DNA of 64,000 nt. Source: an uncultured Lachnospiraceae bacterium. Its GTDB lineage: Bacteria > Bacillota > Clostridia > Lachnospirales > Lachnospiraceae. The stretch's first letter is position 1, and each line of letters begins with the position of its first letter. Of this stretch, positions 4,107 to 45,931 are shown piece by piece. The stretch lies in NCBI GenBank assembly GCA_947173495.1, contig CAMWFQ010000006.1, forward strand, positions 1-64,000, read 5' to 3'. Position numbers and translations under genes: made by a program. The notes below the pieces were generated by a model, which saw only the letters and a program-made list of their open reading frames with translations, was not told where the DNA came from and made no database searches.

Positions 4107-4133
4107 TTTATTTTGTTTGATCCCCCTTTTTAC

Positions 4134-5450: not shown

Positions 5451-5498
5451 TGATAAGCTTCCTTCTTTCTTTTTGTATATAAATTCCCTTGTATTTAT

Positions 5499-7799
5499 TT
5501 ATACTCTTAAATTTTTGATCCCAATTCTATTTATCATTGAACGGAAAAAAGCATGTCCTTTTCCTTTAGACTCATATAACAAATAATTAGAATCAATACA
5601 TTTATCAATATACTCAATCAACCACTGGTAGCTTAACTTAAAATTAGATATGATATCTTCGTAAGTAAAATTAACCATATTTTGCAAATACTCATCATCT
5701 GCTAATTTTTCCAGTACATCATCTATATTACTAAAATCTTTTTTTAATGGAATATAATGAACTCCTGGTTTCAAAATGCCTGAATAATTACCTTCATATA
5801 GAATCAAAGCCGTTTTTAAGGATATTGCTTCCAATAATTTAGGGGAAATTTGATTCATTTTTACTTTGCCTTCATAAGATTTCAAGTATTTATCAAATAT
5901 TTCTTGATATGTTACCTTCGGGTTATGAGCAATTTCTTGTTCTACAATTTTCTTTAACTCTCCTTCATCATCAAAAATATTTGATCCGCTTTCTGTTCCA
6001 AGTGTTGCTTTACAAGCTGATAACCACTCTAACCATTTCTCAGTATAAATTCGTTTATCTGACTCCCACTCTATATCTACTTTTAATCCCCTTTCAATAC
6101 AAATTTTTCTCATCTTTATACCTATTTCTAACTTTTCTCTGGCCAAATTACCATACCAATATCCAATATCACGTCCTCTATATCCAATCAAAATAGAACG
6201 TTCGCAAATTTCTAATTTATTAGGATAATTTTTCATTTCATCAGAAATATATCCTGTCATTATATTAAAAAAATTTACATTTGCAAATCTTTCCTTTGGA
6301 TATACTGCATCTATATATTCCTGCGGCACAGCTGTAAAAACTGTATTTATCTTTACGCGTTCTATAAATTTTCTTGTCTCCTCAGTATTATCATAGTCAT
6401 CTTGAATCATGAGAATCTTATGTCCACGATAATTTACTAAAGCCTTCTCAAAATCTGCTGACAAATGTCCCCTAAAGCATACACGAATTGAATAAAAAAT
6501 AATTATTGCATCAAATCCTTCTAGTTCCTTTCTACTGCAAGATGCATTTCTAGTTGCTGCAGTATAAGTTATCATATGCCGGGAATATCTCTCGAACATT
6601 TCTAGGTAATTTTTTATTGTAAACACATGCATGGAGCCTTCGTCATATAATATATTAATCTTTTTTCGCATCCCCACATTCCTTTTAGTATTAGAAAATT
6701 CACTTATTGCATTTAATAATAACAAGAAATTGCGGTCATAATCTCTGCACTTTGCACTTTCCAATTTCCTTCGAAGGTCCTTAATACTTTTTTCTTTATG
6801 TGCTTTTTCTATTTCATCAACAAATTCTGCTGGTGTATTTGCAAAATGAATATACGGGCTGCATTGTTCCAATGCGGCAATTGGGGTAGTTACAATTGAT
6901 AGTCCTGCCGCCATATATTCAAAGGCTTTTAATGGTAAACAATTATAAAGTTCTGGTTTATTTACAAATGGTATGATTCCCACTGTTGCCTTTATACATA
7001 ACTCACGTACTTCCCTAATACTTAAAAACCCAAAATATCTGACATTTTTATTATTATTAATTATTTTTGTTATTGCATCATCTTCTCCCTTTCCACAAAT
7101 CCATAATTCCCATCCCTTCATATTTTGAGCAATATATTCAAGCACCGAAAAATCTATTCGCCAATTGATTCCACCTTGATAAATAATAATCCGATTCTGT
7201 TCTTTCTCCTTCTCCATCAATTCTTGTTCTGTCAAATGCCAAAAATTATAGTCACATCCGTTTTCCAATAGTAAAGATTTATACTTTCCAATTCCTAAAG
7301 CATTATAATTTTTCATGACTTTTTTAGAAACAGAGACTACTATATCTACGATGCTAAGAGTTTTACATATAAAAGAGCGCAATACAGTAGCACCTGCATT
7401 TTTCCACGATAAATAATCTTCAGTGGCATGAAAAATTTTTAAAGAAGCATTATACCTTTCAATATACTCTACAAACCTAACATTATATATCCAAAACAAT
7501 GGGGTTAGTATTTTTAGTTTTAACAATGCATAGTCAATCTGTTTACCCTGGTGTTCACCATAGATTTGTGACACATGTAAAACCGTCACATTTTCAAGTT
7601 CAGTTGGTTCCGTATATGAATCGCCTTTTGTAATATCTGGCTGGATGAAAATAACTTTAGTGATCCTTCCAAAGCGAGAAGCATAATGGTATCTATTACT
7701 CACAGGTTCTGTAAACCAGTCCGACCACGTAAACATTACCACCGCATCAAACTTTTGTAAGGAACATATCCCTTCTTCTTTCTGCATCTTTTTATCCAT
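5499..7799 (-). CDS. Fused glycosyltransferase: GT4-like N-half plus CgeB-like C-half (paralogue 2)
   Basis: At 766 aa this is about twice the usual length. Residues ~10-375 form a GT4-like enzyme: the Rossmann start DAVVMFTWSDW, ENGCDYNFW, IIIYQGGINWRIDF, LWICGKGEDD, GIIPFVNKPELYNCLPLKAF and EYMAAGLSIVTT are typical of its donor-binding half. Residues ~390-766 are the CgeB-like unit shared with the two paralogues in this region: YRGRDIGYWYGNLA, ESGSNIFDDEG, QISPKLLEAISL, YEGNYSGILKP and LKKDFSNIDDVLEKL. Two transferase units in one chain would add two successive sugars (inference). The ATG at 7799 directly abuts AAAGGG; an in-frame ATG at 7787 gives better spacing and may be the true start. 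It lies 48 bases upstream of paralogue 1. Confidence 0.5.
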   Translation of the reverse strand: MDKKMQKEEGICSLQKFDAVVMFTWSDWFTEPVSNRYHYASRFGRITKVIFIQPDITKGDSYTEPTELENVTVLHVSQIYGEHQGKQIDYALLKLKILTPLFWIYNVRFVEYIERYNASLKIFHATEDYLSWKNAGATVLRSFICKTLSIVDIVVSVSKKVMKNYNALGIGKYKSLLLENGCDYNFWHLTEQELMEKEKEQNRIIIYQGGINWRIDFSVLEYIAQNMKGWELWICGKGEDDAITKIINNNKNVRYFGFLSIREVRELCIKATVGIIPFVNKPELYNCLPLKAFEYMAAGLSIVTTPIAALEQCSPYIHFANTPAEFVDEIEKAHKEKSIKDLRRKLESAKCRDYDRNFLLLLNAISEFSNTKRNVGMRKKINILYDEGSMHVFTIKNYLEMFERYSRHMITYTAATRNASCSRKELEGFDAIIIFYSIRVCFRGHLSADFEKALVNYRGHKILMIQDDYDNTEETRKFIERVKINTVFTAVPQEYIDAVYPKERFANVNFFNIMTGYISDEMKNYPNKLEICERSILIGYRGRDIGYWYGNLAREKLEIGIKMRKICIERGLKVDIEWESDKRIYTEKWLEWLSACKATLGTESGSNIFDDEGELKKIVEQEIAHNPKVTYQEIFDKYLKSYEGKVKMNQISPKLLEAISLKTALILYEGNYSGILKPGVHYIPLKKDFSNIDDVLEKLADDEYLQNMVNFTYEDIISNFKLSYQWLIEYIDKCIDSNYLLYESKGKGHAFFRSMINRIGIKNLRV

Positions 7800-7908: not shown

Positions 7909-9801
7909 CTATCTCTTTACATTAAAGATTTTTACCCATCTTCCTAAGCAAATAATCCTAAATGAAAAATAATCCTTAACGTTATTTTTGATACAATAGT
8001 CAAACCATTCTAAAACTTTTTTTTCTTCTACAATTTGATCCAAAATTTTACACGCCTTTAGCAATTCATTCCTAAAATATTCTTGATGGGCATGTATCCA
8101 CACCTCCTCTGGAGTAGCAAATCCCAACTTTGACATTCTTAACCGTATTTTCTCAGGTAAAATTCCCTTCATGGCACTTCTCATAACTGCCTTCGTATAT
8201 CCATTACGTATTTTATGTTCTGCAGGCATGTCATAAATTGCCTCCACTAGTCTATAATCCAAAAAAGGGACTCTCGTTTCAATAGAATGAGCCATAGAAT
8301 TTCTATCCTCGAAATGTAACAATGCCTGAAGATTTACTTGAATCATATCTTTTGTAAATTGGTCAAAATCGTTAATATTATAAATTCCTTTTATAGTTCC
8401 CTTGTTTAAAGGATAAGGGTACGGTATCTTCTTACCGCAATCATTCTTATTTTCCTTTTTTTTCCCATACACCTTCAACTTTGATAAAATCTTCCACCAT
8501 TTTCTATTACTAAATAAGTTTTTTAAAGCATCTTCCAAAATACTATTTGCACAAATATCTTCTACTTTTCCACGTTTCTTGTCAAAATTTTTAATTGCTT
8601 TATATAACTCAATTACTTTTCTTTTTTTTAAAAATTCAATAAATGTCGGCAAATAAAAACCTGTATAACCTGCTAATTGTTCATCAGCACCTTGCCCATC
8701 CAACATAACTGTTAAGTTGTTTCTTTGAGCTTCTTCAAACACTTCCCACTGGGCACAAATTGATGTAGTTGTAAATGGCTCATCCATATGCCAAATTATC
8801 TTATCTAACTTAGCAAATATATCTTCAATATTTACATATATTTTATGTGAAACTGCATTCGTCAATTTAATTACTTCGTCTATATATTCTTGCTCATCAT
8901 ATTTTTTTTCTTCTTCCTTATCAAAACACGAAGATATCGTATGGATCTCTACCGAATTATTAAATAGTTCAGAAATTCCACATACTATAGATGAGCTATC
9001 TAACCCTCCCGATAAACAGGCTCCAATTGGGACATCAGCGCGTAGCCTTAAATAAAGTGAATCTAAAAACGTCTTTTTAAAAACCTTAACATTTTTTTTA
9101 TAATTATTCAAAATATGATGCTTCTCTATATTATACCATTTCTTAACTTGCCAATTATTTTTTTCTAATGCAAATATTCCACACGTTCCCGCGCTTAACT
9201 GTTTTATGTCCTTAAAAAATGTAGTATCACTCCACTCTGTTATTCCATTGCACAGGAAATCCCATACTCGATCTTCATTCATTTTTGCTGCAACAGGCAT
9301 AACTTTTAAAATTTGTTTGATTTCTGATGCAAATAAAAATTTATCATTGTTTAAAAAATAATAAAATGGTTTGATTCCAAAACGATCCCGTGCACAAAAT
9401 AATATTTTTTTCACATCATCATAAATAGCAAATGCCCACATACCATTAAATTTATTTAAGCAATCTTCACCCCAACAATCATATGCTGCCATAATCACTT
9501 CTGTATCAGTTTCTGAAAAAAAATTATATCCTTGTTTTAAAAGTTCAGACCTTAGTTCTATATAATTGTATACCTCACCATTATAAACTATTGAGTATCG
9601 TCCTTGAAAATGCATTGGTTGATTTCCTGCATCACTCAAATCAATAATTGATAGCCTTTTGTGTCCAATAGCAAAATTATTTTTTAAATAAGTTCCTTCT
9701 GCATCTGGTCCTCTATGATGAATAGTCTTCAACATTTCCTGGATTAAACCTATATTTACTTTTTCTCCATTCTTATTAATTATTCCACAAATACCACACA
9801 T
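7909..9801 (-). CDS. asnB: AsnB-type glutamine amidotransferase, copy 2
   Basis: 630 aa with Cys2 (CGICGIINKNGEK), HHRGPDAEG, NGEVYNY, the synthetase motif SGGLDSSS near residue 261, and LHFEDRNSMAHSIETRVPFLD. Both half-reactions, glutamine hydrolysis and ATP-dependent amide transfer, should be intact. It is clearly diverged from copies 1 and 3, so it is not a recent tandem duplicate. It sits directly after the ABC permease and before the GT4-CgeB fusion, which argues for a dedicated glycan role such as uronamide formation rather than asparagine supply. The ribosome site AAGGAAG (9829-9835) is 27 bases from the ATG, but a perfect 6-bp hairpin (9813-9828) between them would shorten the effective distance to about 11. 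Confidence 0.5.
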   Translation of the reverse strand: MCGICGIINKNGEKVNIGLIQEMLKTIHHRGPDAEGTYLKNNFAIGHKRLSIIDLSDAGNQPMHFQGRYSIVYNGEVYNYIELRSELLKQGYNFFSETDTEVIMAAYDCWGEDCLNKFNGMWAFAIYDDVKKILFCARDRFGIKPFYYFLNNDKFLFASEIKQILKVMPVAAKMNEDRVWDFLCNGITEWSDTTFFKDIKQLSAGTCGIFALEKNNWQVKKWYNIEKHHILNNYKKNVKVFKKTFLDSLYLRLRADVPIGACLSGGLDSSSIVCGISELFNNSVEIHTISSCFDKEEEKKYDEQEYIDEVIKLTNAVSHKIYVNIEDIFAKLDKIIWHMDEPFTTTSICAQWEVFEEAQRNNLTVMLDGQGADEQLAGYTGFYLPTFIEFLKKRKVIELYKAIKNFDKKRGKVEDICANSILEDALKNLFSNRKWWKILSKLKVYGKKKENKNDCGKKIPYPYPLNKGTIKGIYNINDFDQFTKDMIQVNLQALLHFEDRNSMAHSIETRVPFLDYRLVEAIYDMPAEHKIRNGYTKAVMRSAMKGILPEKIRLRMSKLGFATPEEVWIHAHQEYFRNELLKACKILDQIVEEKKVLEWFDYCIKNNVKDYFSFRIICLGRWVKIFNVKR

Positions 9802-24221: not shown

Positions 24222-26075
24222 TTAAAACTCTTCTATATATTCCCCATACCACATCTGAAAAACATAAAACGACCAGAGCAAAGAACTGTAAACAATGAAA
24301 TCCGATTTTTCCTGCTTTTCAATCAGTTCCTTCACTTTTTCAGGATCAAAAATCCCCTGTCTTTTTAACCTGCCCGGCTCTGATAATCTCATAATCTCCG
24401 GTTTCAGCACCGTCCTCAGCCATTTACGCAACGGTACGCCGAATCCCTTTTTGGGGCGGTCCAGCATCTCTTTTGGCACATATTCGTACGCAAGTTCCTT
24501 TAACAGATATTTTTTTTCAAAAAAATGATATTTTAAACTATGAGAAACCTGAAAGGACCATTCTACAATACGGTGATCCAGGATCGGGCATCTTACTTCC
24601 AGAGAATACTTCATGGATGCACGATCCATCTTGGTCAGAATATCCTCCGGCAGATATGTCGTCATATCCAGCACCATTCTTTTTTCCTGCAGATTGGAAG
24701 TATGAATCCTTTTCTCCTGATCAAATTTCACATCCTGGGCAGAAGAAAGCAGTATTTTCTGTGCTTCCTCCGCAATCACATCTATAAAAAGCTGGCTCTT
24801 GTAGTTTTGATCCCGGTTTCGGATAAAGGCGCGGACTGTAGCCGGAACATGCGAAAGCAACGCATTGTTCCATGGCATCCTGCTTTCGATCATTCCCAGG
24901 AAATCCGCATGCTGTGCGATCCACGCCATATCATACATTTTATAGCCGCAGAACAATTCGTCTCCTCCATCTCCGGACAATGCCACTGTTACATGCTCTG
25001 ATGCCAGCTTAGATACCAGCATGGAGGGAAGCTGTGAAGAATCAGAGAACGGTTCATCATAATACATCGGTAATTGCTGCAGCATCTGCAGGATCTGCTC
25101 TTCCTTCATATACAGCTCATGATGACAGGTTCCGATATGCCTGGCAATCTCCGCTGCATATGGCGCTTCATCTCGCTCTTTATCATAAAATCCAATTGTA
25201 AAGGAGTCTACCGGCTTTTGGGAAACCTCCTGTGCAACAGCTGTAACAAGTGCAGAATCAATCCCGCCGCTTAAGAAGGTTCCCACAGGCACATCCGCCA
25301 CAAGTCTTTTGGAAACGGAATCTCTCAGTATATTTTTCAGCTGGTCCTTTGCTTCTTCTCTGTCTGTAATATTCTTCGGAGTATTTTTCCAGATGTCTAT
25401 TAAATCCCAGTATTTAAAGCTCTGAATTTGCCCCCTTTGATAGATAATGCAGGAGCCTGCCTCCACCTTAAAAGTATCCCTGAAAATCGTGGGGGGAGAT
25501 GCAATATATTTATTGCACAAAAAATGGCCGATGATGCGCTCGTCTATCTCCCTGGAAAAGGAGGGATACTTCATGATCGGCTTCAGTTCTGACGCAAAGA
25601 CAAACTCTTCTCCTTTATGATAATAATATAAGGGCTTTTTCCCCATGCGATCCCGTGCCAGGACGATTCTGTCCTGTTCCTCATCGTATATGGCAGCTGC
25701 AAACATTCCGTTAAACTTCTCAAAACAGCTGCATCCCCATTCCTGATAGGATGCTATGACAACTTCCGTATCACAGTTTGACCGGAAACAATAGCCCTTT
25801 TTCGTCAGCTCATTCCTGAGCTGAATATAATTGTAAATCTCACCGTTATATGTGATTACTATTTTTCCATCATTTGAGAGCATGGGCTGATGACCAAGCT
25901 CAGACAGATCCAGAATCGACAATCTGCGCTGAGCAAATCCCACGCCATATTCCGGCTTCTGTATCTCCCAAATGCCGCTGTCATTTGGTCCCCGATGGTA
26001 CATGGTATCATTCATTTCTTCCAGCAGCCCGCTCTTTATTAATTTTTTGCCCAGATACCCGCAAATACCACACAT
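24222..26075 (-). CDS. asnB: AsnB-type glutamine amidotransferase, copy 3
   Basis: 617 aa with Cys2 (CGICGYLGKK), YHRGPNDSG, NGEIYNY, the glutaminase domain block CDTEVVIASYQEWG, the synthetase motif SGGIDSALV near residue 266, LSGDGGDELFCGY, and MDRASMKYSLEVRCPILD. It belongs to the exosortase/EPS-type AsnB subgroup more than to copies 1 and 2 (impression from motifs). Its start is 1 base after the GT4 stop, with AGGGA 7 bases upstream inside that gene. Its GC is higher than that of copies 1 and 2, in line with the compositional change in this part of the locus. Likely role: amide formation on a glycan precursor; true asparagine synthesis cannot be excluded. Confidence 0.5.
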   Translation of the reverse strand: MCGICGYLGKKLIKSGLLEEMNDTMYHRGPNDSGIWEIQKPEYGVGFAQRRLSILDLSELGHQPMLSNDGKIVITYNGEIYNYIQLRNELTKKGYCFRSNCDTEVVIASYQEWGCSCFEKFNGMFAAAIYDEEQDRIVLARDRMGKKPLYYYHKGEEFVFASELKPIMKYPSFSREIDERIIGHFLCNKYIASPPTIFRDTFKVEAGSCIIYQRGQIQSFKYWDLIDIWKNTPKNITDREEAKDQLKNILRDSVSKRLVADVPVGTFLSGGIDSALVTAVAQEVSQKPVDSFTIGFYDKERDEAPYAAEIARHIGTCHHELYMKEEQILQMLQQLPMYYDEPFSDSSQLPSMLVSKLASEHVTVALSGDGGDELFCGYKMYDMAWIAQHADFLGMIESRMPWNNALLSHVPATVRAFIRNRDQNYKSQLFIDVIAEEAQKILLSSAQDVKFDQEKRIHTSNLQEKRMVLDMTTYLPEDILTKMDRASMKYSLEVRCPILDHRIVEWSFQVSHSLKYHFFEKKYLLKELAYEYVPKEMLDRPKKGFGVPLRKWLRTVLKPEIMRLSEPGRLKRQGIFDPEKVKELIEKQEKSDFIVYSSLLWSFYVFQMWYGEYIEEF

Positions 26076-28359: not shown

Positions 28360-28629
28360 ATGAAAAAAATCATATTAAGAGCCTTAAATTTCTCATATTT
28401 CTTCACCTGCTGGTGGATTTTCCTTTCCATCAATGCCCACGCTTATATAGACCCCTCAGCCGTGACCTATCTGATTCAGGCTGTAGCGGCAGTTTTCATC
28501 GCTCTGGGCGCTATCGTTACGGTTTTCCGCCACAAGATCTTTGCCTTCTTCAAAAAGAACTCCAAAGCTTCCGAAAAGAGAGAGATCCATATGAAGGAGG
28601 ATATTGGGGAAGACGCTTCCGAAAAATAA
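28360..28629 (+). CDS. Small membrane protein with YIDPSAV motif
   Basis: 89 aa. A signal-like hydrophobic N-terminus (FSYFFTCWWIFLSINAHA, possible cleavage after HA) is followed by YIDPSAVTYLIQAVAAVF, a second hydrophobic helix, then a charged tail (KKNSKASEKRE). Proteins with a YIDP..VTYLIQ core recur near surface-polymer genes in clostridia (recollection, not searched). The start has a perfect AGGAGG 8 bases upstream. It is the first gene of the plus-strand island and is followed after 23 bases by the YidC fusion; it may be a partner or regulator of that enzyme in the membrane (inference). Function unknown. Confidence 0.5.
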   Translation: MKKIILRALNFSYFFTCWWIFLSINAHAYIDPSAVTYLIQAVAAVFIALGAIVTVFRHKIFAFFKKNSKASEKREIHMKEDIGEDASEK

Positions 28630-28652: not shown

Positions 28653-30533
28653 ATGCAGATAATAGGGAACTTTTTTGGCGCGATTATGCTCCTTTGTTAT
28701 AACATTGTGCATAATTACGGTCTGGCCATCATTGTGTTTACATTACTGACCAAAATCATATTATTGCCGGTTTCTGTTATGGTCCAGAAGAATTCCATCA
28801 AAATGGTCAGGATGTATCCTGAGATCAACCGGATCAAGGCGAAGTATTTCGGCAACAAGGATATGATCTCCGAAGAGGAATATCAGCTTTATAAGAGAGA
28901 AAATTACCATCCCATGCTGGATCTGATTCCTGTGATCCTGCAACTGATCATTCTCATGGGGGTTGTGGATGGAATCCGGCGTCTGAATATCCCGGACAAA
29001 AGCTTTCTGGGTCTGGATCTGGGAGTCATTCCCATTCATGCCGGCGGAATCTCCATTCTGATACCGGTTATTGCCGCTCTGTCGGCATGGCTGATGTGCT
29101 TTACCCAGAACAAATCCAACGTGCTTCAGTCTGAACAGAGTAAACTGAACAAAATGACTACCCTGCTGATCTCAGTGGGGTTATCCTTATATCTGGGATT
29201 TTTCGTGGAGGCAGGGATCGGCTGCTATTGGATTGCCGGCAATCTCCTGTCTATTGCTGTTATGTATCTGCTGAATTTCTGCATCAATCCCAAAAAATAT
29301 ATTGATTATGCCGCCCTCGAAGAGAGCCGGAAGGAGCTCTCACAGCTGAGCCAGTATGCCGCCGGGTCAAATGGCCCCAAAGATAAAGAACTCACAGCGC
29401 TTGAGAAACGGGACTGCAGACGTTTTCAGAAATATGAAAATAAACAGCTGGTTTTTTATTCCGAAAAGAATGGGTTTTATAAATATTTCCGCAATGTGAT
29501 CGAGCTGATCCTGAAAAAAACGGATATCGTGGTCCACTATATTACAAGCGACCCTCATGATGAAGTTTTTCAAATCCAGAATGACAGCTTTCAGGTATAT
29601 TATATCAGCGAAAACAAGCTGATCGTCACGATGCTGAAGATGGATGCCGATATGGTCGTCATGACCATGCCGGATCTGCAGAAATATCATATCAAGCGTT
29701 CCATGGTGCGCAGCGATATTGAGTACGTATATATGGATCACGGTATGAACAGCCTGAACATGATGCTGCGGAAGCATGCCCTTGATGCTTTCGATACGGT
29801 CTTTGCATCCAACGATCTGGTATATCAGGAAATACGAGGCCAGGAGGCCGTCTATGGATTAAAAGAAAAGACCATTCTAAAATATGGATACGGACTGATC
29901 GATCGTATGATCTCAGAATATGAAAGTCAGGAGCCACGCGAGAATGATCCTAAGATCATCCTGATCGCCCCCTCCTGGCAGGAACATAATATTATGGAGT
30001 CCTGTATTGATGAAATTCTGCAAAATCTCCTGGGGCATGGCTATCACATTATTCTGCGGCCGCATCCTCAATATGTGAGACACTTTGAAGAGAAGCTGAA
30101 GGCTATGGAAAGCCGGTATTCGGAATATCCCGATTTTACCCTGCAGACGGATTTTTCCTCCAATGATACGGTATTTAATGCAGATATCTTGATGACAGAC
30201 TGGTCCGGCATCGCCTATGAATATTCCTTTACCACCTTAAAGCCCACCCTGTTCATCAATACACCTATGAAGGTTATGAACCCTGATTACCAGGAAATAG
30301 ATGTGGAACCCTTTGATATCATAATCAGAGACCGGATCGGAATTTCCGTGGAGCCGGATCATCTTGATGATTTGGGAGATATCGTCTCCAGACTTCTGTA
30401 TGAAGAAACCTACTCCAAAGACAGCATGAGAGAGCTGAGAGATCAATATCTTTACAATGTGTCCGGAAGCGGTCAGGTGGGAGCCGATTATATCATTCGC
30501 AGATTAATAGAATATTCAAAAAAAGGAGCTTAA
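28653..30533 (+). CDS. YidC/Oxa1-type insertase domain fused to CDP-glycerol-type phosphotransferase
   Basis: 626 aa. Residues 1 to about 220 form a complete YidC-like unit: NYGLAIIVFTLLTKIILLPV with Lys34 at the conserved Arg position of the hydrophilic groove, cytoplasmic hairpin PEINRIKAKY then EEYQLYKRENYHPMLDLIP, SFLGLDLG, and GIGCYWIAGNLLSI. After a linker (about 220-255), residues ~255-620 match the TagB/TagF (CDP-glycerol glycerophosphotransferase) family: EYVYMDHGMNSL, LKYGYGLIDRM, ILIAPSWQEHNI, ILRPHPQYV, ADILMTDWSGIAYEYSF and KPTLFINTPMK. No lipoprotein signal is present, unlike Gram-positive housekeeping YidC. It probably transfers a phospho-alcohol from a CDP donor to a membrane glycan, with YidC as anchor or lipid-facing module (inference). 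The next gene, 1 base away, could make the CDP donor. Confidence 0.5.
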   Translation: MQIIGNFFGAIMLLCYNIVHNYGLAIIVFTLLTKIILLPVSVMVQKNSIKMVRMYPEINRIKAKYFGNKDMISEEEYQLYKRENYHPMLDLIPVILQLIILMGVVDGIRRLNIPDKSFLGLDLGVIPIHAGGISILIPVIAALSAWLMCFTQNKSNVLQSEQSKLNKMTTLLISVGLSLYLGFFVEAGIGCYWIAGNLLSIAVMYLLNFCINPKKYIDYAALEESRKELSQLSQYAAGSNGPKDKELTALEKRDCRRFQKYENKQLVFYSEKNGFYKYFRNVIELILKKTDIVVHYITSDPHDEVFQIQNDSFQVYYISENKLIVTMLKMDADMVVMTMPDLQKYHIKRSMVRSDIEYVYMDHGMNSLNMMLRKHALDAFDTVFASNDLVYQEIRGQEAVYGLKEKTILKYGYGLIDRMISEYESQEPRENDPKIILIAPSWQEHNIMESCIDEILQNLLGHGYHIILRPHPQYVRHFEEKLKAMESRYSEYPDFTLQTDFSSNDTVFNADILMTDWSGIAYEYSFTTLKPTLFINTPMKVMNPDYQEIDVEPFDIIIRDRIGISVEPDHLDDLGDIVSRLLYEETYSKDSMRELRDQYLYNVSGSGQVGADYIIRRLIEYSKKGA

Positions 30534-30534
30534 A

Positions 30535-32346
30535 ATGCAGGCAGTAATACTGGCAGCCGGTATGGGCAAAAGATTAAAGGAACTGACACAAAACAATGCA
30601 AAGTGTATGGTTCAGGTAAACGGCATCACCCTGATTGAAAGAGCGCTTCGTATTCTGGATCGAAAGCATTTATCCCGGATCGTGGTGGTCGTAGGTTTCG
30701 AAAGCCGGAAACTGACGGATTTTATTCTCAGTCTGCAGATTGATACCCCAGTCGTCTTCGTCAACAACGATGTTTATGATAAGACCAATAATATCTATTC
30801 TCTTCTGTTGGCGAAAGAATATCTGACCAGAGAGGATACTCTTCTTCTGGAATCTGATATTATTTTCGAAGAAAATGTGATCGACGTGCTTCTTCAGGAT
30901 AAGCGTGAGAGTCTTGCTCTTGTGGATAAATTCGCCAGCTGGATGGACGGCACCTGCATGGAGCTGGATGAAGATGACGCTATCCGGGAATTCATTCCCG
31001 GCAAATACCTGAAATTTGAAGAAAAAGAGCATTACTACAAAACCGTTAATATCTATAAGTTCAGCAGCACTTTTTCCGCTAATGTCTATATTCCCTTTCT
31101 GGAGGCCTATTTTAAGGCAATGGGGGTCAACGAATACTATGAATCCGTGATTAAGCTGATCGCCATGCTGGAACGGAGCGGCATTCGGGCAAAGAGACTG
31201 ACCGGACAGGTATGGTACGAAATTGATGACGCCCAGGATCTGGATATTGCATCCACTCTCTTCGCTGACAGCACAGAAAAAAAATACGATGCCATCGCTT
31301 CCAGATATGGTGGATATTGGCGTTACCCGGCTCTTCTGGATTTCTGTTATCTGGTAAATCCCTATTTCCCTACGGAAAAGATGAAAGAAGAGATAAAGTC
31401 CAATTTTGACACCCTTCTTTCCCAATACCCTTCCGGAATGAGAGTCAATTCCCTGCTCGCTGCCAGAAACTTTGGGGTAAAGCAGGAGCACATTGTGGTT
31501 GGCAACGGAGCGGCGGAATTAATCAAGGCTTTGTTGGAAGGCCTTGAGGGCAGGTTGGGTATCATTCAACCCACTTTCGAGGAATATCATCATCGGTTTA
31601 AAGGAGAAATTGTGGCCTTTATCAGCCGGAAAGAAGATTTTTCCTATACAGCGGCAGACATCATGAATTTCTACGAAAAGCATCCTGTGGATCATCTGAT
31701 CCTGATCAATCCTGATAATCCTTCCGGCAACTATATCCGGCGAAAGGATGTGTTTCCGTTGATTGACTGGTGCCGCCAGAGGTCCGTTACTTTGGTGATT
31801 GACGAGAGCTTCATTGATTTTGCTGATGAGAACACCGAGCTTCAAAATACTTTTCTCTCCGAGCAGATACTGGCCCTTTATGACCAACTGTACGTGGTAA
31901 AGAGTATTTCAAAATCTTACGGTGTTCCCGGCTTACGATTAGGGGTTCTTGCCAGCGGCGATGAAGAAATGATCGCTGCCCTAAAAAAAGAGGTCTCCAT
32001 TTGGAACATCAATTCCTTTGCCGAGTTTTATATGCAGATCTCAGAAAAGTATAAAAGGGATTATATCAAATCTCTTGCCAGGATCCGGGAGGAGAGAAGC
32101 CGCCTTATTGAGCGGCTAAATCAGTACGGCTGTCTGAGAGCATTCCCTTCACAGGCAAATTATATCTTGTGTGAAATTATCGGAGGAAAAACAAGCAGGC
32201 AGATCGTAACCTGCCTGCTAAAGAACAATATATTAGCAAAGGATATCACTGCCAAAGCCGGTAATGGAAAGCAGTATCTGAGAATCGCTGTACGATCGGA
32301 AACCGATAATGAAAGGCTGCTGAAAGCCCTCCAGGATATCCATTAA
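30535..32346 (+). CDS. Bifunctional nucleotidyltransferase and CobD/HisC-like PLP enzyme
   Basis: 603 aa. Residues 1 to about 235 are a LicC-like nucleotidyltransferase: VILAAGMGKRLKELT, NAKCMVQVNG, FVNNDVYDKTNNIYSLLLA, LLLESDIIFEE and the late acidic YEIDDAQDL. Residues ~270-603 are a fold-type I PLP enzyme: VVGNGAAELIKALLEG, PTFEEYHHRF, INPDNPSGNYI, VIDESFIDF, the PLP lysine Lys460 in SISKSYGVPGLRLG, and YLRIAVRS. The PTFEEY motif resembles CobD-type phosphothreonine/phosphoserine decarboxylases more than HisC. A plausible job is making phosphoethanolamine (or aminopropanol phosphate) and activating it to a CDP derivative in one protein. PntC-like aminoethylphosphonate cytidylyltransferases also carry aminotransferase fusions, so this is an alternative. 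AGGAG lies 7-8 bases before the ATG. Confidence 0.5.
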   Translation: MQAVILAAGMGKRLKELTQNNAKCMVQVNGITLIERALRILDRKHLSRIVVVVGFESRKLTDFILSLQIDTPVVFVNNDVYDKTNNIYSLLLAKEYLTREDTLLLESDIIFEENVIDVLLQDKRESLALVDKFASWMDGTCMELDEDDAIREFIPGKYLKFEEKEHYYKTVNIYKFSSTFSANVYIPFLEAYFKAMGVNEYYESVIKLIAMLERSGIRAKRLTGQVWYEIDDAQDLDIASTLFADSTEKKYDAIASRYGGYWRYPALLDFCYLVNPYFPTEKMKEEIKSNFDTLLSQYPSGMRVNSLLAARNFGVKQEHIVVGNGAAELIKALLEGLEGRLGIIQPTFEEYHHRFKGEIVAFISRKEDFSYTAADIMNFYEKHPVDHLILINPDNPSGNYIRRKDVFPLIDWCRQRSVTLVIDESFIDFADENTELQNTFLSEQILALYDQLYVVKSISKSYGVPGLRLGVLASGDEEMIAALKKEVSIWNINSFAEFYMQISEKYKRDYIKSLARIREERSRLIERLNQYGCLRAFPSQANYILCEIIGGKTSRQIVTCLLKNNILAKDITAKAGNGKQYLRIAVRSETDNERLLKALQDIH

Positions 32347-32360
32347 TGCCTCATTATTTT

Positions 32361-34526
32361 TTATTCATCCTCATAAATCAGCTGCCAGTTGTTAATATCC
32401 CGCACATCACCGCGAATGAGAAACTCTCTGAATGGAATATCTCCCCGTCCATACAGGAATTTCCGTTCGCGGTCTTCTTTTTCCTGATAATCATCAATTG
32501 TCCTGCCATAGGACGCTGCCTCTCCTTTTATTGCCTTAATCACAGTCGCTGCCAGATCGGTATGGGAAAGCGGCGCCGTCGACCAGACAGGCCCCTCTTC
32601 TTCCTGATCCGGCACATTTCCGGCCGGCTTCACAAACAAAATCGGATTGGATGTCTCTCTGAAACCCAGTGCTTCTGCTTCCTTCACCCGCTCTTGCTCC
32701 AGAAGGTAGTTCTGCCCATGATCCGCAGTGATGATGATTGTTGTGTTGTCATATAATCCCAGTTCCTTCAATTGTCTGATGTACTCATACACAATCTTCA
32801 TACTGCCTTTTGCCTGGGAAAGCATCTCCTCTTTTATGCTGTGAAAACCGGTATGATCGGATGCCTTCCAATCTTCTGTCATGTTATAGGGCGGATGCGC
32901 GCCATACAGATGATAGAACCGGTACGCTCCCTGCACGTCTTCATTTTTCTCTACTCTGAGTCCGTTCTGATGCAGGTCGTGATAGAACTTCAAATCGCAC
33001 AGACTGTCATAAGTATTTACGTCTACAGCCAGCCTTTCGATCTCACTGGTGTCATACCAGTATAAATTTTTCAGAGCAAAGGGCGCCATTTTATATTTTG
33101 AACTTTTATTCATCAAAGAAACGATGTTGGCAATATCATATTGTTTTTTCGCCTCTTCTGAATAATTTCTGACAATATCTTTCACCTTTTCATTTACATA
33201 ATTTACAGATGTGTAAATTCCGATATCATATCCCTGTTCTGCAATATCCGCCAGCAGCGTGCTGTTTTCATATGCATAATCGCGGTAAGTACGTGTAATA
33301 AACTGACCGGTTTCTTCTGCCTCCACTCCCGTCAGCAGATAAGGAATAGACGCTTCTGTAAACGCATATCGGCTCGTCGTATTCGGATAATACGTAAAAC
33401 CATCCAACGGCTCCAGAAAGTCTCCTTTCTCATCAAGAATCTGCTCAATAATCTGAGTGTCAAAAAAGTCAAGAACAAATACCAGTACATTCTTTTCTTC
33501 ATGCAGATCCAGGCTTCCTTCCGTCGTCAGTACATGTTCATTGGCATTCAGGTCTTCTGCCGAAAAAAACAGAATTCCTAATGTAACAGCCTGTATCAGA
33601 CAAATATAAATGCAGATCATACGGTAGACCTTCAGACACTTCTCCTGGAATTTTCTTTTAAGCATGCAGATCAGAACAATGGCCGCACACCATATCGTGA
33701 TATTGATTACTGTCTTTCCGACGCTCCAGGTCTGTACAGAGCCGTCTAACGAGTAAAGTTTTCCATTAAGAAGCATTGTCTGCAGATAGCCGCACACTGT
33801 CCACGCAAACAAACCCGTATAGAACAGATCAAACTGTCTGTTCGTAAAAAAACAGGTGCTCAGCCCCACATAAACGATCAATGTGATTATGCTTTCTACC
33901 GCTAAAATACACACAAAAATACTGTAATGCATCGGAAATTCTGTTGTATTGGTCAGATAGAGTTCATTGGGAAAATATAATATGACTGACATCACCCAGC
34001 AAAAAATGACTGGCAGTGCTCGCTTGATTCTTACTTTTCCTGCACCTGGGCGCACATAATCGATCTTGACCGGAACGCGCAAAGCGCTGGCCGAAGCAGC
34101 AATACTTATTACGCCGAAACACAAATACATGAAATTGCTGACACGTCCTGTCAGGAGATAAACGATCAGCAGGGAAAAAAGCTGCACAGAATCAGCCAGT
34201 TCGATCCACCGGTCGATGTTTTTTTTACCCCCCAGCTTTTTCAAGCCCAGGGAAAGCACGAAGATGCTCAGTAAAAGAGGAAACGAATAATGAAGATAGG
34301 TTGCTCCTTCAATATCGCCAAAGCTCTCGATCAGCGTCAAATTCCCCTCTCCCAATACAGACTTGGCAGCTGATAATATCCCATGAAAAATCAGAATAAA
34401 AAACATTACTGTTTTTCCCAATTTTTCCGTATTGAGTTTTTTTGTTTTAATATTAAATCTGTAAACCGCCGCAGATAATACCCCCGGCATGATACATAAC
34501 AGCATTAATCCAGTGAATATCTTCAT
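32361..34526 (-). CDS. LtaS-like/phosphoethanolamine-transferase-like membrane protein (sulfatase superfamily)
   Basis: 721 aa from ATG at 34526 (AGAGGG 7 bases upstream); a longer frame from 34583 overlaps the upstream gene and lacks such a site. The N-terminal ~330 residues have about ten hydrophobic segments; the C-terminal extracytoplasmic domain has alkaline-phosphatase-superfamily metal motifs: VLVFVLDFFDTQ, the likely nucleophile region YPNTTSRYAFTEASIPYLLTG-like (Thr/Ser rich), YHLYGAHPPYN and IIITADHGQNY. Relatives transfer phosphoglycerol or phosphoethanolamine from lipids to surface polymers, or cleave sulfate/phosphate esters. It converges on the plus-strand island with only 14 bases between stop codons, so a functional link through phospho-substituents is attractive but unproven. 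Confidence 0.5.
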   Translation of the reverse strand: MKIFTGLMLLCIMPGVLSAAVYRFNIKTKKLNTEKLGKTVMFFILIFHGILSAAKSVLGEGNLTLIESFGDIEGATYLHYSFPLLLSIFVLSLGLKKLGGKKNIDRWIELADSVQLFSLLIVYLLTGRVSNFMYLCFGVISIAASASALRVPVKIDYVRPGAGKVRIKRALPVIFCWVMSVILYFPNELYLTNTTEFPMHYSIFVCILAVESIITLIVYVGLSTCFFTNRQFDLFYTGLFAWTVCGYLQTMLLNGKLYSLDGSVQTWSVGKTVINITIWCAAIVLICMLKRKFQEKCLKVYRMICIYICLIQAVTLGILFFSAEDLNANEHVLTTEGSLDLHEEKNVLVFVLDFFDTQIIEQILDEKGDFLEPLDGFTYYPNTTSRYAFTEASIPYLLTGVEAEETGQFITRTYRDYAYENSTLLADIAEQGYDIGIYTSVNYVNEKVKDIVRNYSEEAKKQYDIANIVSLMNKSSKYKMAPFALKNLYWYDTSEIERLAVDVNTYDSLCDLKFYHDLHQNGLRVEKNEDVQGAYRFYHLYGAHPPYNMTEDWKASDHTGFHSIKEEMLSQAKGSMKIVYEYIRQLKELGLYDNTTIIITADHGQNYLLEQERVKEAEALGFRETSNPILFVKPAGNVPDQEEEGPVWSTAPLSHTDLAATVIKAIKGEAASYGRTIDDYQEKEDRERKFLYGRGDIPFREFLIRGDVRDINNWQLIYEDE

Positions 34527-34564
34527 AATTTCACCCTCTCTTTCTTCGACCTTCCTTACGGAGC

Positions 34565-36490
34565 TTATAAAAGAAGATTGCATACCCCGTGCCGAATAAA
34601 AGAATACATTGACAGCACAGCGATACAGGCCACCGTACCGATATAAGCCTTATTCTTCCATATCCCTTTATTTCTCTGGCACAAATAGCCCACGCAGAAA
34701 ACAAGTGGCATCAGATATCTTCCCTGGGGCTGAAAATCGACGTGCCAACACCAGTAAACCAGAATTGCAATCAAAAATCCGCACAGTCCAACAACCACAA
34801 CGCCCTCTAGCGCTACCTGACGATTTTTATTTTTATATAGCGACAGAATAATTTCCATGCACAACAGCAGATATAGAAAACGCATTACATTATTATATCT
34901 GTCGCCCCCATAAAACTGCATCCATCCGTATGATCCCACAAAGGAACGAAACAGAATCTTTCCAAATTCCATATCCACTAATACTTCTTTCAACGTGACG
35001 CCGCGCTCATCCAATTGTGTTTCATAAAGTGTGGTTTCCCCTTCCGGAATCTCTATCTGTGTGCCGGAAATTACATTTTCTTTCCCTGCTCTGACCATAA
35101 TATCATCAAGTTCATTTTTGATAAATATCAGTAAAAAAGCAAAAAATAAAATTCCGATATATTTTTTCAGCAAAACCCATTTTTCTTTTCCCTGTTGAGA
35201 CAGCATCCTGAATAAAAGCGCAAAAAATACCAGCAATAAAACAATATAATAATTTTTTTTAGCCTGAAGAAGGAACGAAAAGATCAGGCCGCAGAGAGCC
35301 GCATATGCTATGTTCTTTCCCGCCCTGTCTTTGGCTGCCAGATACTTATTTAAGGCACTGTTTTCCCAGGTCAGCTCAAACACTGCCATAAAGCTCCAGA
35401 ATACATCCCACCCATCGGATGTGGCATAGCAAAATAAATACCAGAGCTGAGGTGTGAACACCGCAATAAGGTACATCCATGGACATTTCTTTCCAAACCG
35501 GATTGCCATGACAATCATGATCCCCAGAAGAAAAACATTAAACATCCGGTAATAAGACGTTACATGCAGCAGCCTTTCAAAAATCCACCCGAACTTTCCG
35601 GCCCAAAAATAATACCACGTATGTTCTGTCAGTCTGGACGCACCGTATTCCGAAAACGTGCCGGCTGTCCAGCTGCTGTTCAAATCAGGGCGAAGCCATC
35701 CTCCCATGTAATAGTCAATCGCCATCCTGCTGACATTTTCATCCGGATGGCCATATGTCTGGCTTCCAACTGCTGTCCACAAAACAAGCCCGAAGACAAA
35801 AAACAGAAAGATGCAGCAAAGTCTTCTTATATATTCCGGCATCATTTCAGATCTGTCCTGCTCTGCCGCAATCAGGCTCTCTGCCTTCTCCCTGAAATCT
35901 TTCCTGACCACATATTTTCTTATCGCCAAAATAAACAGAATATACCCGGTCAGTAAATAGAATAATAAGTTTATCTTAAATCTTATATCATTATTTCCAA
36001 TCCTTATCAGTTCCTCAAACAATCTTTTCGTCCCGGCAATCTGCGGTGCGCCGTTTTCCGAAATGAACGTAATATACATATGATCAATCATATACTCTGT
36101 ACCGGGAGCGCACTCAAAAAAATCCGGGATCTGTACCGGCGCAAGACGCTTGATCTGCAGCTTATGATTACAAAACTCGATTGCTCTGACCCTGCTTTTC
36201 TCCGTATCATCCTGCACATTTATTTCCATAGATTCGATGGGCGAATCCGTGGGAAGCTGATACGTCATTTCATAACTCTTATACGCCCCTTCCGGCGTTC
36301 TTCCGATGAACTCGTATTCTTTTTCCGCATCGCGGATCACCATTCTTCCCGTTGTATCGGCCGGCAGCTCTATTTCATAGATAATCTTCATCTGCAGCTG
36401 CGGCTCCACGGGACAGATCCCTATGACAATTCCTGCCAATATACACAGTACAGCGGCTGACAGGCAGATTCCCCTCATTCGTCTCTTCAT
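34565..36490 (-). CDS. Polytopic membrane protein, DUF2142-like GT-C candidate
   Basis: 641 aa. An N-terminal helix is followed by a beta-rich extracytoplasmic stretch (about 30-165) and then ten or more membrane helices. The loop after one helix reads SQTYGHPDENVSRMAIDYYMGG; the HPDE motif and position are typical of DUF2142-type putative GT-C enzymes, which use polyprenyl-phosphate sugars outside the membrane. It may use the donor made by membrane GT2 enzymes such as 27216-28160 or 41882-42586. Its gene is 7 bases from the upstream GT2 gene. Confidence 0.5.
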   Translation of the reverse strand: MKRRMRGICLSAAVLCILAGIVIGICPVEPQLQMKIIYEIELPADTTGRMVIRDAEKEYEFIGRTPEGAYKSYEMTYQLPTDSPIESMEINVQDDTEKSRVRAIEFCNHKLQIKRLAPVQIPDFFECAPGTEYMIDHMYITFISENGAPQIAGTKRLFEELIRIGNNDIRFKINLLFYLLTGYILFILAIRKYVVRKDFREKAESLIAAEQDRSEMMPEYIRRLCCIFLFFVFGLVLWTAVGSQTYGHPDENVSRMAIDYYMGGWLRPDLNSSWTAGTFSEYGASRLTEHTWYYFWAGKFGWIFERLLHVTSYYRMFNVFLLGIMIVMAIRFGKKCPWMYLIAVFTPQLWYLFCYATSDGWDVFWSFMAVFELTWENSALNKYLAAKDRAGKNIAYAALCGLIFSFLLQAKKNYYIVLLLVFFALLFRMLSQQGKEKWVLLKKYIGILFFAFLLIFIKNELDDIMVRAGKENVISGTQIEIPEGETTLYETQLDERGVTLKEVLVDMEFGKILFRSFVGSYGWMQFYGGDRYNNVMRFLYLLLCMEIILSLYKNKNRQVALEGVVVVGLCGFLIAILVYWCWHVDFQPQGRYLMPLVFCVGYLCQRNKGIWKNKAYIGTVACIAVLSMYSFIRHGVCNLLL

Positions 36491-42586: not shown

Positions 42587-44037
42587 TCCTTCTGTTCCCT
42601 CTTTGCTCTGCGGACGAATCTGTCAAAACAGGGGATCAGAATCATATCCCTTGTCAGCAGATACATAGCGCAATAAAAAATTCCCATTCCATATACCACA
42701 TATCTTTGTATCCCAATGAAGGCGAGATTGATCAGCACAACCATAACAATCAGCACGATCAGAATACTCACTGCAAATTCTATCTTGTGTCTGTCTCCTC
42801 CGCGCCTGGCTGCATAGATACACAGTCCTATGGAGAACAGATAAATAAACAACGTAATGAAATGGCATATCAGGTAAATTGGTTTTATCTGGAAAAACAC
42901 GCTGGCAATAAAGGAAGGGATCATAAGCCTGACTGCATGATACAGATATCTGCCAAAATGTTTTACCAAAAGACGCATTCCAAATGCAAGATAAATCTCC
43001 GTATCGCTCTGGGATCTGACTCCCGGGTTCTCCTCATCATATTCCATGATGGCTTCACCCACATCAAGCACCATCTTGTCATACACAAGATCTTCCCACA
43101 TATAAAGTCCCGGCTCCGCGTAAGCATACCGGTGTCCGCCTTCATCCACGATCCGATAGGCTCTGTTGAAAATATCTTTCAGTACCTCATCCTCGAAAAT
43201 CTCTGCGTCCTCCTGATCGGCTTCAAAAAAACCCCTTGATAAGATCAGTGAGACAAATTGTGAGGTTGCTTCCCTCTGCGGGGTATCTGTCTCCTGACCT
43301 TCTTCTGTAACTGCTGCCCCCTGCTGCTTCTTTTCCGCCTGCCTCTGCAGATCACAGGCGGAAACGGTATAAATCAGCTTATAGGATAACAATGCAAGTA
43401 CCACCCCTGCGATCATTGCCGAAACAAAATACGCCGTCTTTCTGACCATTCCCTTTCCTGCTCTGTTTACCGTAATCCAGATCAGAAGCAACAGGCCAAG
43501 AGCCTGCAAAAAAATCATCTGGCTCCGGATCAGCCCCAGCAGAAATGCAAATCCCATACTTCCCCAGTACCATCTGTACTTTAACGTCCACACTGCCTTC
43601 ACTGTGGCAAGAAAATATAAATAGAAGAGCGCATAAGTGATTCCTTCTGTCATGATCTGATGAGTAATCCCGCATTCAGGCAGATAAATAGAAAAAGGCA
43701 TCATACTTCCCATATACAGCAGAATGCATTCCCAGCCGCACAGCTGAAACTGTCTCTGTAATACGATAACGAAGAGAAACGTACATGCCAATGCCAGTGC
43801 ACTTTGCGCGATTACGACTCCATGGAGAAAATATTGTTCTCCCATCAGATTTCTGAAAAAATCCAGAAATACGGGATACCCCGGAAGAACGCCTTCCCTC
43901 CCCCTGTCAACAAGATATGCCGTACTGTCCTTCTGAATACTGATCCATTCTCCCGGTACAAAGTAAAATAAAAAACCCGGAATCAGCATACAGAAAACTA
44001 TGGTTTTATTTATTCGTCTCTCTGAGAGTGCTCTCAT
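42583..44037 (-). CDS. Polytopic membrane protein, putative GT-C glycosyltransferase
   Basis: 484 aa from ATG at 44037, chosen because GGAG lies 6 bases upstream; a longer frame from 44082 overlaps the upstream gene by 77 bases. About ten membrane helices, an early extracytoplasmic loop containing WISIQKDSTAYLVDRGREG, and a large soluble loop (about 245-370) rich in acidic residues. Topology is that of ArnT/PMT-like GT-C enzymes, but I do not recognise a specific family. Likely uses a polyprenyl-phosphate sugar from the neighbouring GT2. Confidence 0.5.
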   Translation of the reverse strand: MRALSERRINKTIVFCMLIPGFLFYFVPGEWISIQKDSTAYLVDRGREGVLPGYPVFLDFFRNLMGEQYFLHGVVIAQSALALACTFLFVIVLQRQFQLCGWECILLYMGSMMPFSIYLPECGITHQIMTEGITYALFYLYFLATVKAVWTLKYRWYWGSMGFAFLLGLIRSQMIFLQALGLLLLIWITVNRAGKGMVRKTAYFVSAMIAGVVLALLSYKLIYTVSACDLQRQAEKKQQGAAVTEEGQETDTPQREATSQFVSLILSRGFFEADQEDAEIFEDEVLKDIFNRAYRIVDEGGHRYAYAEPGLYMWEDLVYDKMVLDVGEAIMEYDEENPGVRSQSDTEIYLAFGMRLLVKHFGRYLYHAVRLMIPSFIASVFFQIKPIYLICHFITLFIYLFSIGLCIYAARRGGDRHKIEFAVSILIVLIVMVVLINLAFIGIQRYVVYGMGIFYCAMYLLTRDMILIPCFDRFVRRAKREQKE

Positions 44038-45931
44038 TTTTTTCTCCGTAATAAATTTCAATCGTTCTGTCAACCACATCATCCCAGTTATACCTGCTGC
44101 ATATATAGGAACTGCTTTCTGTTCCTAATTTTTCAACTTCCTGCCTTCTTTCAAGTAAATATTGTAATTTCTCTTTGAGGTCCACGTAATTACCTCTTTC
44201 AAAGCTAACCGCATGATCTCCCACAACTTCCATGTTTTCAGGAATATCACTTACCACGCAGCAATTACCATAGCTCATTGCTTCCAGAAGGCTTATGGCC
44301 ATCCCTTCCACATCACTTGGCAGGACAAATAAATAAGCATTGGAAAACAGCTCCTCCAATTCCCGTCCCTGGACAAATCCTGTTAATATGATATTTTTAT
44401 TTTTCTCCGCCATTTCATAAATATGGGAAACATATTCTGTTGAATGGCTGCTTCCACCTGCGATAACCAGTTTTTTATCTGTATGAAGTTCCTCATATGC
44501 GTCCATCAGATAATGGGCGCCCTTTTCCGGAACAAGCCGGGCAAGAAACAGAATATAGCTCTCCTGCTCAAGTCCCCAGCGTTCTTTAATTATTTTTGCT
44601 CCACACTTTTGCGGCTTTGTTATTCCGTTCGGAATAAATACGGTTTCTCTCCCATATTCCTTTAGAAAATACTGCTGGATATTCCGGGACAGGACAATTA
44701 TGTGATCTGCATGCTTTACAGCCTGCTTTTCTCCGAACTTTAATACCCGGGATGCAAAATTCCCCCATTTGGCCCGCTGCCAGTCAAGACCATGAATGGT
44801 TACCACAATCTTTTTCCTGAATATTTTAAGCATCCACAGCATGGCGCTTGGTCCTTCAGCATGATAATGATAAACACTGTAATTTCCAAAAAGCGCCCGG
44901 ATTGTGGCAAGAAAAGAATACACAATTGCGTTCAGCCTGCTGCTTTTAAAGGTCGGAATCGTAAACAGCCTGATTCCATTATATACCTTTCCCCTCTTCT
45001 CATCAAATTCTTTTCCTGAGACATGATAACCGGAACGATTATAGGCGTCCACCCAGTAACCTTTTTGTACCAGTCTGGTTGCCAGCTCGTCCACAACAAT
45101 CTCAACTCCTCCTTCCCGTGAAGGAATTCTCTTATGTCCGATCATGACAATGCTTTTTTTTCTTCTCTGCCTTCTGCTCTGAAATCCTTCCTGAAAGACC
45201 CGCTTGAGAAATGCAAAATTCGTACATAAATATCTTGGAAGCAGACGCACCGGATCCTGGGTAATACGGTAAAGCCATTCCAGACAGCATTCCTGCATCC
45301 ACTTAGGCGCTCTTTTAACCGTTCCTGCATGGAAGTCAAAAGCGGCTCCCACACCGATCATAAGAGCATTAATCTTAAACTGATGCTCATACATCCATTG
45401 CTCCTGTTTCGGTGCACCCAACGCCACCCACACAAAATCCGGCGCAGCCGCATTGATTTGATGGATTATTTTTTCATCTTCTTCCTCCGTCGCCTTTCTG
45501 AAAGGAGGGGAATACATTCCTGCAATTTTAATCCATGGATATTCTTCTTTTAACCGCCGGCCCAGCTGTTGTATTGTCTCTTCCGTACTTCCAAAAAAGT
45601 AATGTCTGTAGCCCTTTTCTTTCGACTCTTTTAAAATCCGCGCCATCAAATCAGGACCGGGAACTCTCTCCGCATCCCAATACCCCCTGCGCCTGCTTAC
45701 AATGGCAAGGGGTTTTCCATCCGGAATCGCCATTGCCCCGCAGTTCTGTATGGTTCTGTACGCTGTATCTCTGTATGCCATAACCGTAGTATGCACGTTT
45801 GACACACAAATATAATTTCCTCTCAATGCATCCAGATGTTCATTTAAATACGAGACAGTCTGTTCCATTGTCGTTACATTAATATTTGTCCCCAGAATCG
45901 AACAATATTTTAATGGATTACTCTTTTCCAT
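44006..45931 (-). CDS. Fused TagA/WecG (GT26) and GT4 glycosyltransferase
   Basis: 641 aa, two enzymes in one chain. Residues 1 to about 245 are GT26: SILGTNINVTTMEQTVSYL, AIPDGKPLAIVSRRRG, YFFGSTEETIQQL, ALGAPKQEQWMYEHQ and GVGAAFDFHAGTVKRAP. TagA/WecG enzymes add ManNAc or ManNAcA to a polyprenyl-linked GlcNAc. Residues ~260-641 are GT4: RIPSREGGVEIVVDELATRL, VTIHGLDWQRAKWG, VFIPNGITKPQ, ILFLARLVPEKGAHYLM and LPSDVEGMAISLLEAMSYG. The fusion would couple two early sugar additions. WecB at 631-1743 could provide UDP-ManNAc. Confidence 0.5.
   Translation of the reverse strand: MEKSNPLKYCSILGTNINVTTMEQTVSYLNEHLDALRGNYICVSNVHTTVMAYRDTAYRTIQNCGAMAIPDGKPLAIVSRRRGYWDAERVPGPDLMARILKESKEKGYRHYFFGSTEETIQQLGRRLKEEYPWIKIAGMYSPPFRKATEEEDEKIIHQINAAAPDFVWVALGAPKQEQWMYEHQFKINALMIGVGAAFDFHAGTVKRAPKWMQECCLEWLYRITQDPVRLLPRYLCTNFAFLKRVFQEGFQSRRQRRKKSIVMIGHKRIPSREGGVEIVVDELATRLVQKGYWVDAYNRSGYHVSGKEFDEKRGKVYNGIRLFTIPTFKSSRLNAIVYSFLATIRALFGNYSVYHYHAEGPSAMLWMLKIFRKKIVVTIHGLDWQRAKWGNFASRVLKFGEKQAVKHADHIIVLSRNIQQYFLKEYGRETVFIPNGITKPQKCGAKIIKERWGLEQESYILFLARLVPEKGAHYLMDAYEELHTDKKLVIAGGSSHSTEYVSHIYEMAEKNKNIILTGFVQGRELEELFSNAYLFVLPSDVEGMAISLLEAMSYGNCCVVSDIPENMEVVGDHAVSFERGNYVDLKEKLQYLLERRQEVEKLGTESSSYICSRYNWDDVVDRTIEIYYGEKNESTLRETNK

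Follow-up and report, generated by a model that had tools for sequence, protein, structure and literature searches.

In YidC/Oxa1 insertases, a residue of the first core helix usually brings a positive charge into the groove, the N-terminus is outside, and the clients are typically small proteins with one helix. Three-part systems of the GtrA/GtrB/Gtr type work with a lipid-linked donor. Lipid scrambling by insertases is reported in the accessible parts of PMC10491306, in vitro for purified E. coli YidC and in simulation for the Oxa1-family insertases that were tested. The Pnt and Lic pathways (PntC, LicC, LicA and LicD) use CMP-activated aminoethylphosphonate or phosphocholine, supplied by related cytidylyltransferases and encoded beside surface-glycan genes, according to the accessible text of PMC6697681. 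That text deals with CMP-AEP and LicD-like transferases, and it regards the steps that follow C-P bond formation in phosphonate surface tailoring as enigmatic; YidC does not appear in it.

The locus studied here appears to share the kind of donor, the cytidylyltransferases and the genomic setting of the Pnt and Lic pathways, but its transferase is a PF04464 protein fused to YidC and not LicD. Its two further partners, a sulfatase-fold enzyme and a small protein named here after its AYIDP motif, go unmentioned in the accessible text of PMC6697681. The window, i.e. the whole stretch of 64,000 nucleotides that was analysed, comes from a gut bacterium and is a polysaccharide locus, where many glycosyltransferases accompany an initiating sugar transferase and a Wzx-like protein, and the surface-polymer setting that an earlier sequence-only reading had given the fusion was borne out. 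The window also encodes a WecG/TagA-type transferase and a GT4 glycosyltransferase in one chain (44006-45931, reverse strand), and two asparagine-synthase-type proteins (24222-26075 and 7909-9801, reverse strand). The features around the fusion are the following.

28360..28629, forward strand: AYIDP protein of 89 aa, a signal-like leader followed by YIDPSAVTY and one membrane helix (one hydropathy peak)
28653..30533, forward strand: YidC-transferase fusion of 626 aa, from ATG to stop without an internal stop, PF02096 plus PF04464
28716..29276, forward strand: YidC/Oxa1 domain of the fusion (aa 22-208), PF02096, with the Lys34 codon at 28752-28754; the best solved matches are YidC chains
29433..30254, forward strand: PF04464 transferase domain of the fusion (aa 261-534), with His363, RPHP 469-472 and TDWS 515-518
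30535..32346, forward strand: probable CTP:head-group cytidylyltransferase joined to a CobD-like PLP enzyme, 603 aa, assigned from its nearest solved relatives
32361..34583, reverse strand: membrane sulfatase-fold (LtaS-like) protein of 740 aa, a predicted outer transferase, PF00884 at 31.9 bits

The sequence-only reading had described a full YidC unit and a transferase of the TagB/TagF fold in one frame. Both domains scored above the curated Pfam cut-offs, PF02096 at aa 22-208 (E 2.4e-29, 102.8 bits against a cut-off of 35; 107 bits on the genome) and PF04464 at aa 261-534 (E 5.4e-13, 49.1 bits against 22.1), and every motif quoted earlier was present in the 626-aa protein. The possibility of an assembly error had also been raised. 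The same frame was called at 81 distinct loci and is therefore no such error; a chance join is likewise excluded by these many loci. Homologues are not confined to separate proteins with unrelated neighbours, as fusions recur with the same partner genes.

Most of these loci come from a scan of genome contigs that gave at least 558 relatives among at least 595 matching stretches, of which the best 80 loci were kept. A fusion frame was called in 75 of the 80, and L062, L066, L105, L108 and L110, with no called fusion ORF, were left out. Together with the window and nine further loci this amounted to 85 fusion frames, or 81 after removal of the duplicates L022, L024, L026 and L034, whose contigs are as long as those of their twins L060, L095, L099 and L037. 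At E 0.001, PF02096 was found in 53/53 and PF04464 in 52/53 of the aligned full-length proteins. Both domains shared a frame in eight of 200 genomes of the taxonomic family (the window's genome included) and in one genome out of 23 others from the genus, where the identity was 71%. Among 398 phylum-wide genomes searched at a stricter threshold, only two matched besides the window's own: G595, with a fusion, belongs to the same taxonomic family, and G573, with an unfused transferase, to another. So scattered a distribution points to horizontal transfer or repeated losses. Plasmid records gave 29 matches, none covering at least 80% of the query and the best being an ordinary chromosomal-type yidC region, and of the two pattern matches in viral contigs neither was a relative. 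One fusion locus, L109, lies in a record titled Candidatus Saccharibacteria with a genome of about 0.7 Mb, where a binning error is possible. Searches of the open-access literature found no description of a YidC-transferase architecture, which at that scope is no proof of novelty.

Elsewhere in the window's genome there was a single PF02096 match, on contig 32, adjoining genes that were identified by eye as jag, yidD and rnpA, the same order as annotated around yidC in a C. difficile record. The fusion is therefore an extra YidC, and a role as the sole YidC of the cell is ruled out. It has in common with YidC/Oxa1 insertases a complete domain, the conserved helix and hairpin residues and the five-helix core, but differs from them in being an extra copy of its own clade, with an enzyme at the C-terminus and fixed glycan-tailoring partners.

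The enzyme had been read as a CDP-glycerol-type phosphotransferase. The TagB/TagF fold held, whereas the assignment to ordinary CDP-glycerol enzymes did not, given a subfamily of its own and neighbours for CMP-activated head groups. The PF04464 domain, the fold family and the conserved His and RPHP motifs are shared with the teichoic-acid transferases TagB, TagF and TarL, but the YidC-fused proteins do not group with ordinary PF04464 enzymes and adjoin other donor genes. In a tree of 45 rows, 23 YidC-fused, eight AYIDP-type and one unfused transferase were split from 13 ordinary PF04464 proteins with 100/100 support (matches below 150 residues were dropped, leaving 13 of 30 ordinary loci). PF04464 itself is present in at least 63 of 100 genomes of the taxonomic family, the fused proteins standing near the bottom among the matches listed. 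His363, RPHP 469-472, TDWS 515-518 and Glu523 were invariant in 53/53 fusions, and because of this invariance of motif residues that we take to be catalytic (His, RPHP and others) the transferase looks active. The profile of the transferase part gave no match to solved structures, and a weak profile match to TarL (8va1, E 0.0016) was recorded. The neighbouring genes point to a transferase distinct from the ordinary CDP-glycerol enzymes, acting on CMP-activated aminoethylphosphonate, phosphocholine or a CobD-type amine.

In the window, the next gene (30535-32346) starts one base after the stop of the fusion and encodes a nucleotidyltransferase joined to a PLP enzyme. The nearest solved relatives of its first half are LicC (1jyk, E 1.4e-13) and the Treponema PntC-aminotransferase (6pd1, E 1.9e-12), those of its second half a threonine-phosphate-decarboxylase-like protein (6oux, E 9.4e-42) and CobD (1lc5, E 9.7e-34). 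This LicC/PntC-like and CobD-like protein probably makes CDP-ethanolamine or CDP-1-amino-2-propanol. PEP mutase had no match in the window's genome (assembly 97% complete); a PEP-mutase-made phosphonate was therefore set aside as donor and a phosphate ester preferred, probably made with the CobD-like enzyme. Other loci have other suppliers. At L034, from the same genus, the fusion adjoins a choline kinase as well as nucleotidyltransferases; at L022 the neighbours include a nucleotidyltransferase together with PhnW, PEP mutase and phosphonopyruvate decarboxylase, these three above an NCBIfam cut-off. At L034 (954-2789, reverse strand) and L036 (5925-7703, forward strand), an NTP transferase and a choline kinase share a single chain with a winged-helix DNA-binding domain, possibly a self-regulating CDP-choline maker.

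LicD gave four matches in the window's genome, on contig 8, and is absent from the fusion, where Pfam finds PF02096 and PF04464 and no PF04991. The cytidylyltransferase-CobD protein of about 600 aa was also found where the genome has just one YidC match, as in G056, G077 and G098, and probably feeds other transferases too. Given these genomes, which lack an extra YidC, and the four LicD matches, the donor may also serve LicD, a point against the explanation preferred here.

Across the 81 loci, BLAST to seed proteins found phosphonate genes within 6 kb in 36, a CobD-like gene in 16, a choline kinase in four and none of these in 25. Restricted to the 50 loci flanked by 6 kb or more in both directions, the counts were 23, 12, two and 13; a cytidylyltransferase with a head-group supply gene adjoins the transferase in the window and in 37/50 well-flanked loci, and the other 13/50 count against the explanation preferred here. 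A gene for head-group supply or for a nucleotidyltransferase was present within 1.5 kb of 48/71 fusions versus 0/30 ordinary PF04464 loci (Fisher p 3e-11). This comparison took fusions flanked by 1 kb or more in both directions (10 of the 81 loci were left out) and, as controls, the best-scoring ordinary PF04464 loci, one per genome. With the seed-giving fusion loci and their twins removed, head-group genes still stood beside 41/62 fusions. The 25 loci lacking such neighbours belong to 24 genomes, which were searched whole: PEP mutase was above cut-off elsewhere in 16/24, versus 10/100 genomes of the taxonomic family. PEP mutase or a full-length cytidylyltransferase-CobD protein was found in 18/24 versus 21/98 (p 1.5e-6, a statistic that ignores kinship; the background leaves out the window's own genome and G022). 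The six genomes of 24 with neither count against the preferred explanation. The tie of the fusion to head-group tailoring, which rests on genomic association, is well supported. That an ordinary teichoic-acid (CDP-glycerol) polymerase was fused by chance to a working insertase would agree with a PF04464 score above cut-off and the weak TarL match, but is highly improbable in view of the separate subfamily, the 48/71 versus 0/30 contrast in neighbours and the presence of another yidC.

The AYIDP protein was the most constant partner, with a relative within 1.5 kb of 67/71 fusions versus 0/30 ordinary PF04464 controls and the motif itself within 2.5 kb in 73/81 loci. Most AYIDP proteins among those listed have a signal-like leader before YIDPS. 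The copy in the window had no match in NCBIfam or PHROGs, and its Pfam match was weak and below cut-off. The sulfatase-fold protein is near or fused in 38/50 well-flanked loci; none was recognised in 12/50, which counts against the preferred explanation. Asp372, Thr409, His563, Asp621 and His622 were present in 75/75 sequences, and all but His563 presumably correspond to the metal ligands and the nucleophile (Thr) in the alkaline-phosphatase superfamily. The best solved match of the sulfatase profile was the lipoteichoic acid synthase LtaS (2w5q, E 4.3e-11), and from this likeness the domain would lie outside the membrane. The number of helices that hydropathy predicted before the sulfatase domain was odd in some proteins (nine in the window, five in L089) and even in others (four in L116, L053 and L074), which counts against the preferred explanation. 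The sulfatase fold and the conserved Asp, Thr, His and Asp-His are those of the outer phosphotransferases LtaS and EptA; unlike in these, the enzyme is fused or linked to the YidC-transferase and its donor is presumed to be a head-group lipid from the same machine.

The four modules (YidC, transferase, AYIDP and sulfatase) were recombined in other fusions. Seven long fusions were scanned with Pfam. The order sulfatase-YidC-transferase was found in L089 (1200 aa) and L116, and the order YidC-transferase-sulfatase in L053, L070, L072, L074 and L090, the last with a sulfatase below cut-off and from the same genome as L074. L089, L116 and the L053 group stand apart in a tree of YidC domains, so the sulfatase was probably joined at least three times. 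In L033 the AYIDP stretch is carried by the sulfatase. In a second format, an AYIDP-transferase is paired with a YidC-sulfatase and the same kinds of donor genes: PEP mutase at L150, cytidylyltransferase-CobD at L151, and choline kinase at L035, L036 and L152; none was seen at the second-format loci L147-L149 and L153. Of nine YidC-sulfatase loci, six adjoin the AYIDP-transferase and three, all in G004, do not. On contig 45 of G004, a transferase match (4733-5815) adjoins a PEP mutase (3371-4219), the three YidC-sulfatases being on other contigs. The two YidC-sulfatases scanned had a Pfam sulfatase score below cut-off, with the active-site residues present. L150 encodes a 375-aa protein without a seed match (5554-6681, forward strand) between PEP mutase and phosphonopyruvate decarboxylase. 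PhnW had no match at L150, and the phosphonate there may therefore not be aminoethylphosphonate.

The constancy of the AYIDP protein, the second format, in which the transferase carries it and the sulfatase carries YidC, and the liking of YidC for small one-helix clients all agree with a groove that serves AYIDP, either by inserting it or by holding its helix as a permanent subunit tying transferase and sulfatase together. The signal-like leader of most listed AYIDP proteins suggests the Sec route instead, and we consider this role for the groove improbable.

The reading we prefer is that the fusion is the central part of a head-group tailoring machine for a cell-surface glycan, which is very probable because of the head-group genes beside the fusions and not beside the controls, the shuffled fusions, the separate transferase subfamily and the intact sulfatase site. 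Its steps would form a relay. A cytidylyltransferase would make a CMP-linked donor, from which the cytoplasmic PF04464 domain would transfer the head group to an acceptor in the membrane, which is most probably a lipid carrier. The head-group lipid would then cross the membrane through the hydrophilic groove of the fused YidC, with the one-helix AYIDP protein, and outside the LtaS-like enzyme would pass the head group on to the glycan. Domains, genomic association and shuffled fusions are observed; from the donor onwards we infer its identity, the lipid acceptor, the direction of flow and the groove as passage. The complete four-step relay is our favoured reading, with an even chance of being right. 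Its likeness to the GtrA/GtrB/Gtr systems is one of proposed logic and not of sequence (a donor lipid made inside, carried across and used outside), and here the head group would be a phospho- or phosphono-amine and not a sugar.

The YidC domain bears on the third step. Its five strong hydropathy peaks and one borderline peak, with the N-terminus outside as in other YidCs, would put the transferase inside. Lys34 aligns with an Arg in the solved structures of Bacillus halodurans and E. coli YidC, which we take to line the groove. This position was Lys in 81/85 and Arg in 3/85 fusions (one gap), and Lys or Arg in only 16/31 other YidCs of the taxonomic family. It was Asn in 9/9 YidC-sulfatase proteins (Lys or Arg in 0/9); groove charge is therefore not common to both formats, a point against the preferred explanation. 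Asn197 seemed special to the fused YidCs, being lacking in 30/31 other family YidCs, and was dropped as a candidate when Asn was found there in solved YidCs. A tree of 87 YidC domains, which took in 47 of the 85 from fusions, placed these 47 rows in one group (100/100) apart from the 31 other family YidCs, one of which fell beside the YidC-sulfatase rows on long branches.

A YidC domain acting only as anchor or scaffold would leave the head group to be added in the cytoplasm to a lipid-linked glycan repeat and exported by an ordinary Wzx-type flippase, the sulfatase having some other function. The polysaccharide locus of the window, with its Wzx-like protein, initiating sugar transferase and glycosyltransferases, would provide for this, and the lack of groove charge in YidC-sulfatases is in its favour. 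So is the nearest unfused transferase, in G573, which follows relatives of PEP mutase, the decarboxylase, a nucleotidyltransferase and PhnW and precedes two membrane sulfatases, with no YidC seen in the 15-kb stretch around it, another point against the preferred explanation. However, the YidC part is conserved like the enzyme (mean pairwise identity 0.571, versus 0.544 for the transferase and 0.407 for the linker), and polar residues within its helices are kept (Gln97, Ser178, Tyr180, Asn197 and Asn208 in 53/53, Lys34 in 50/53). Since an anchor would need neither, these features speak against a mere anchor, as do the two orders in which the sulfatase has joined this chain; we regard that role as unlikely. 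The passage for a lipid-linked head group, which the conservation of the YidC part and the in vitro scrambling by E. coli YidC support (accessible parts of PMC10491306), remains our choice for the domain, at slightly less than even confidence.

YidC domains are fused or linked to enzymes predicted on both faces of the membrane, and donor genes of the phosphonate, choline and CobD types are linked with the transferase. Because the relatives have the same partners, YidC seems to have been taken over for decorating the surface. In its broadest form, and more tentatively, an Oxa1/YidC-superfamily domain may have left protein insertion and now form a transmembrane passage for lipid-linked phospho- or phosphono-head groups, in several fusion orders and sometimes within one chain. 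The 1200-aa chain of L089 makes the idea testable with one purified protein. The YidC-fused family bears on the phosphonate-tailoring steps called enigmatic in the accessible text of PMC6697681 and on the insertase lipid scrambling in that of PMC10491306. If true, the proposal would mean a function other than insertion for one of the most widespread families of membrane proteins and a physiological use for the lipid-scrambling ability that insertases have shown in vitro.
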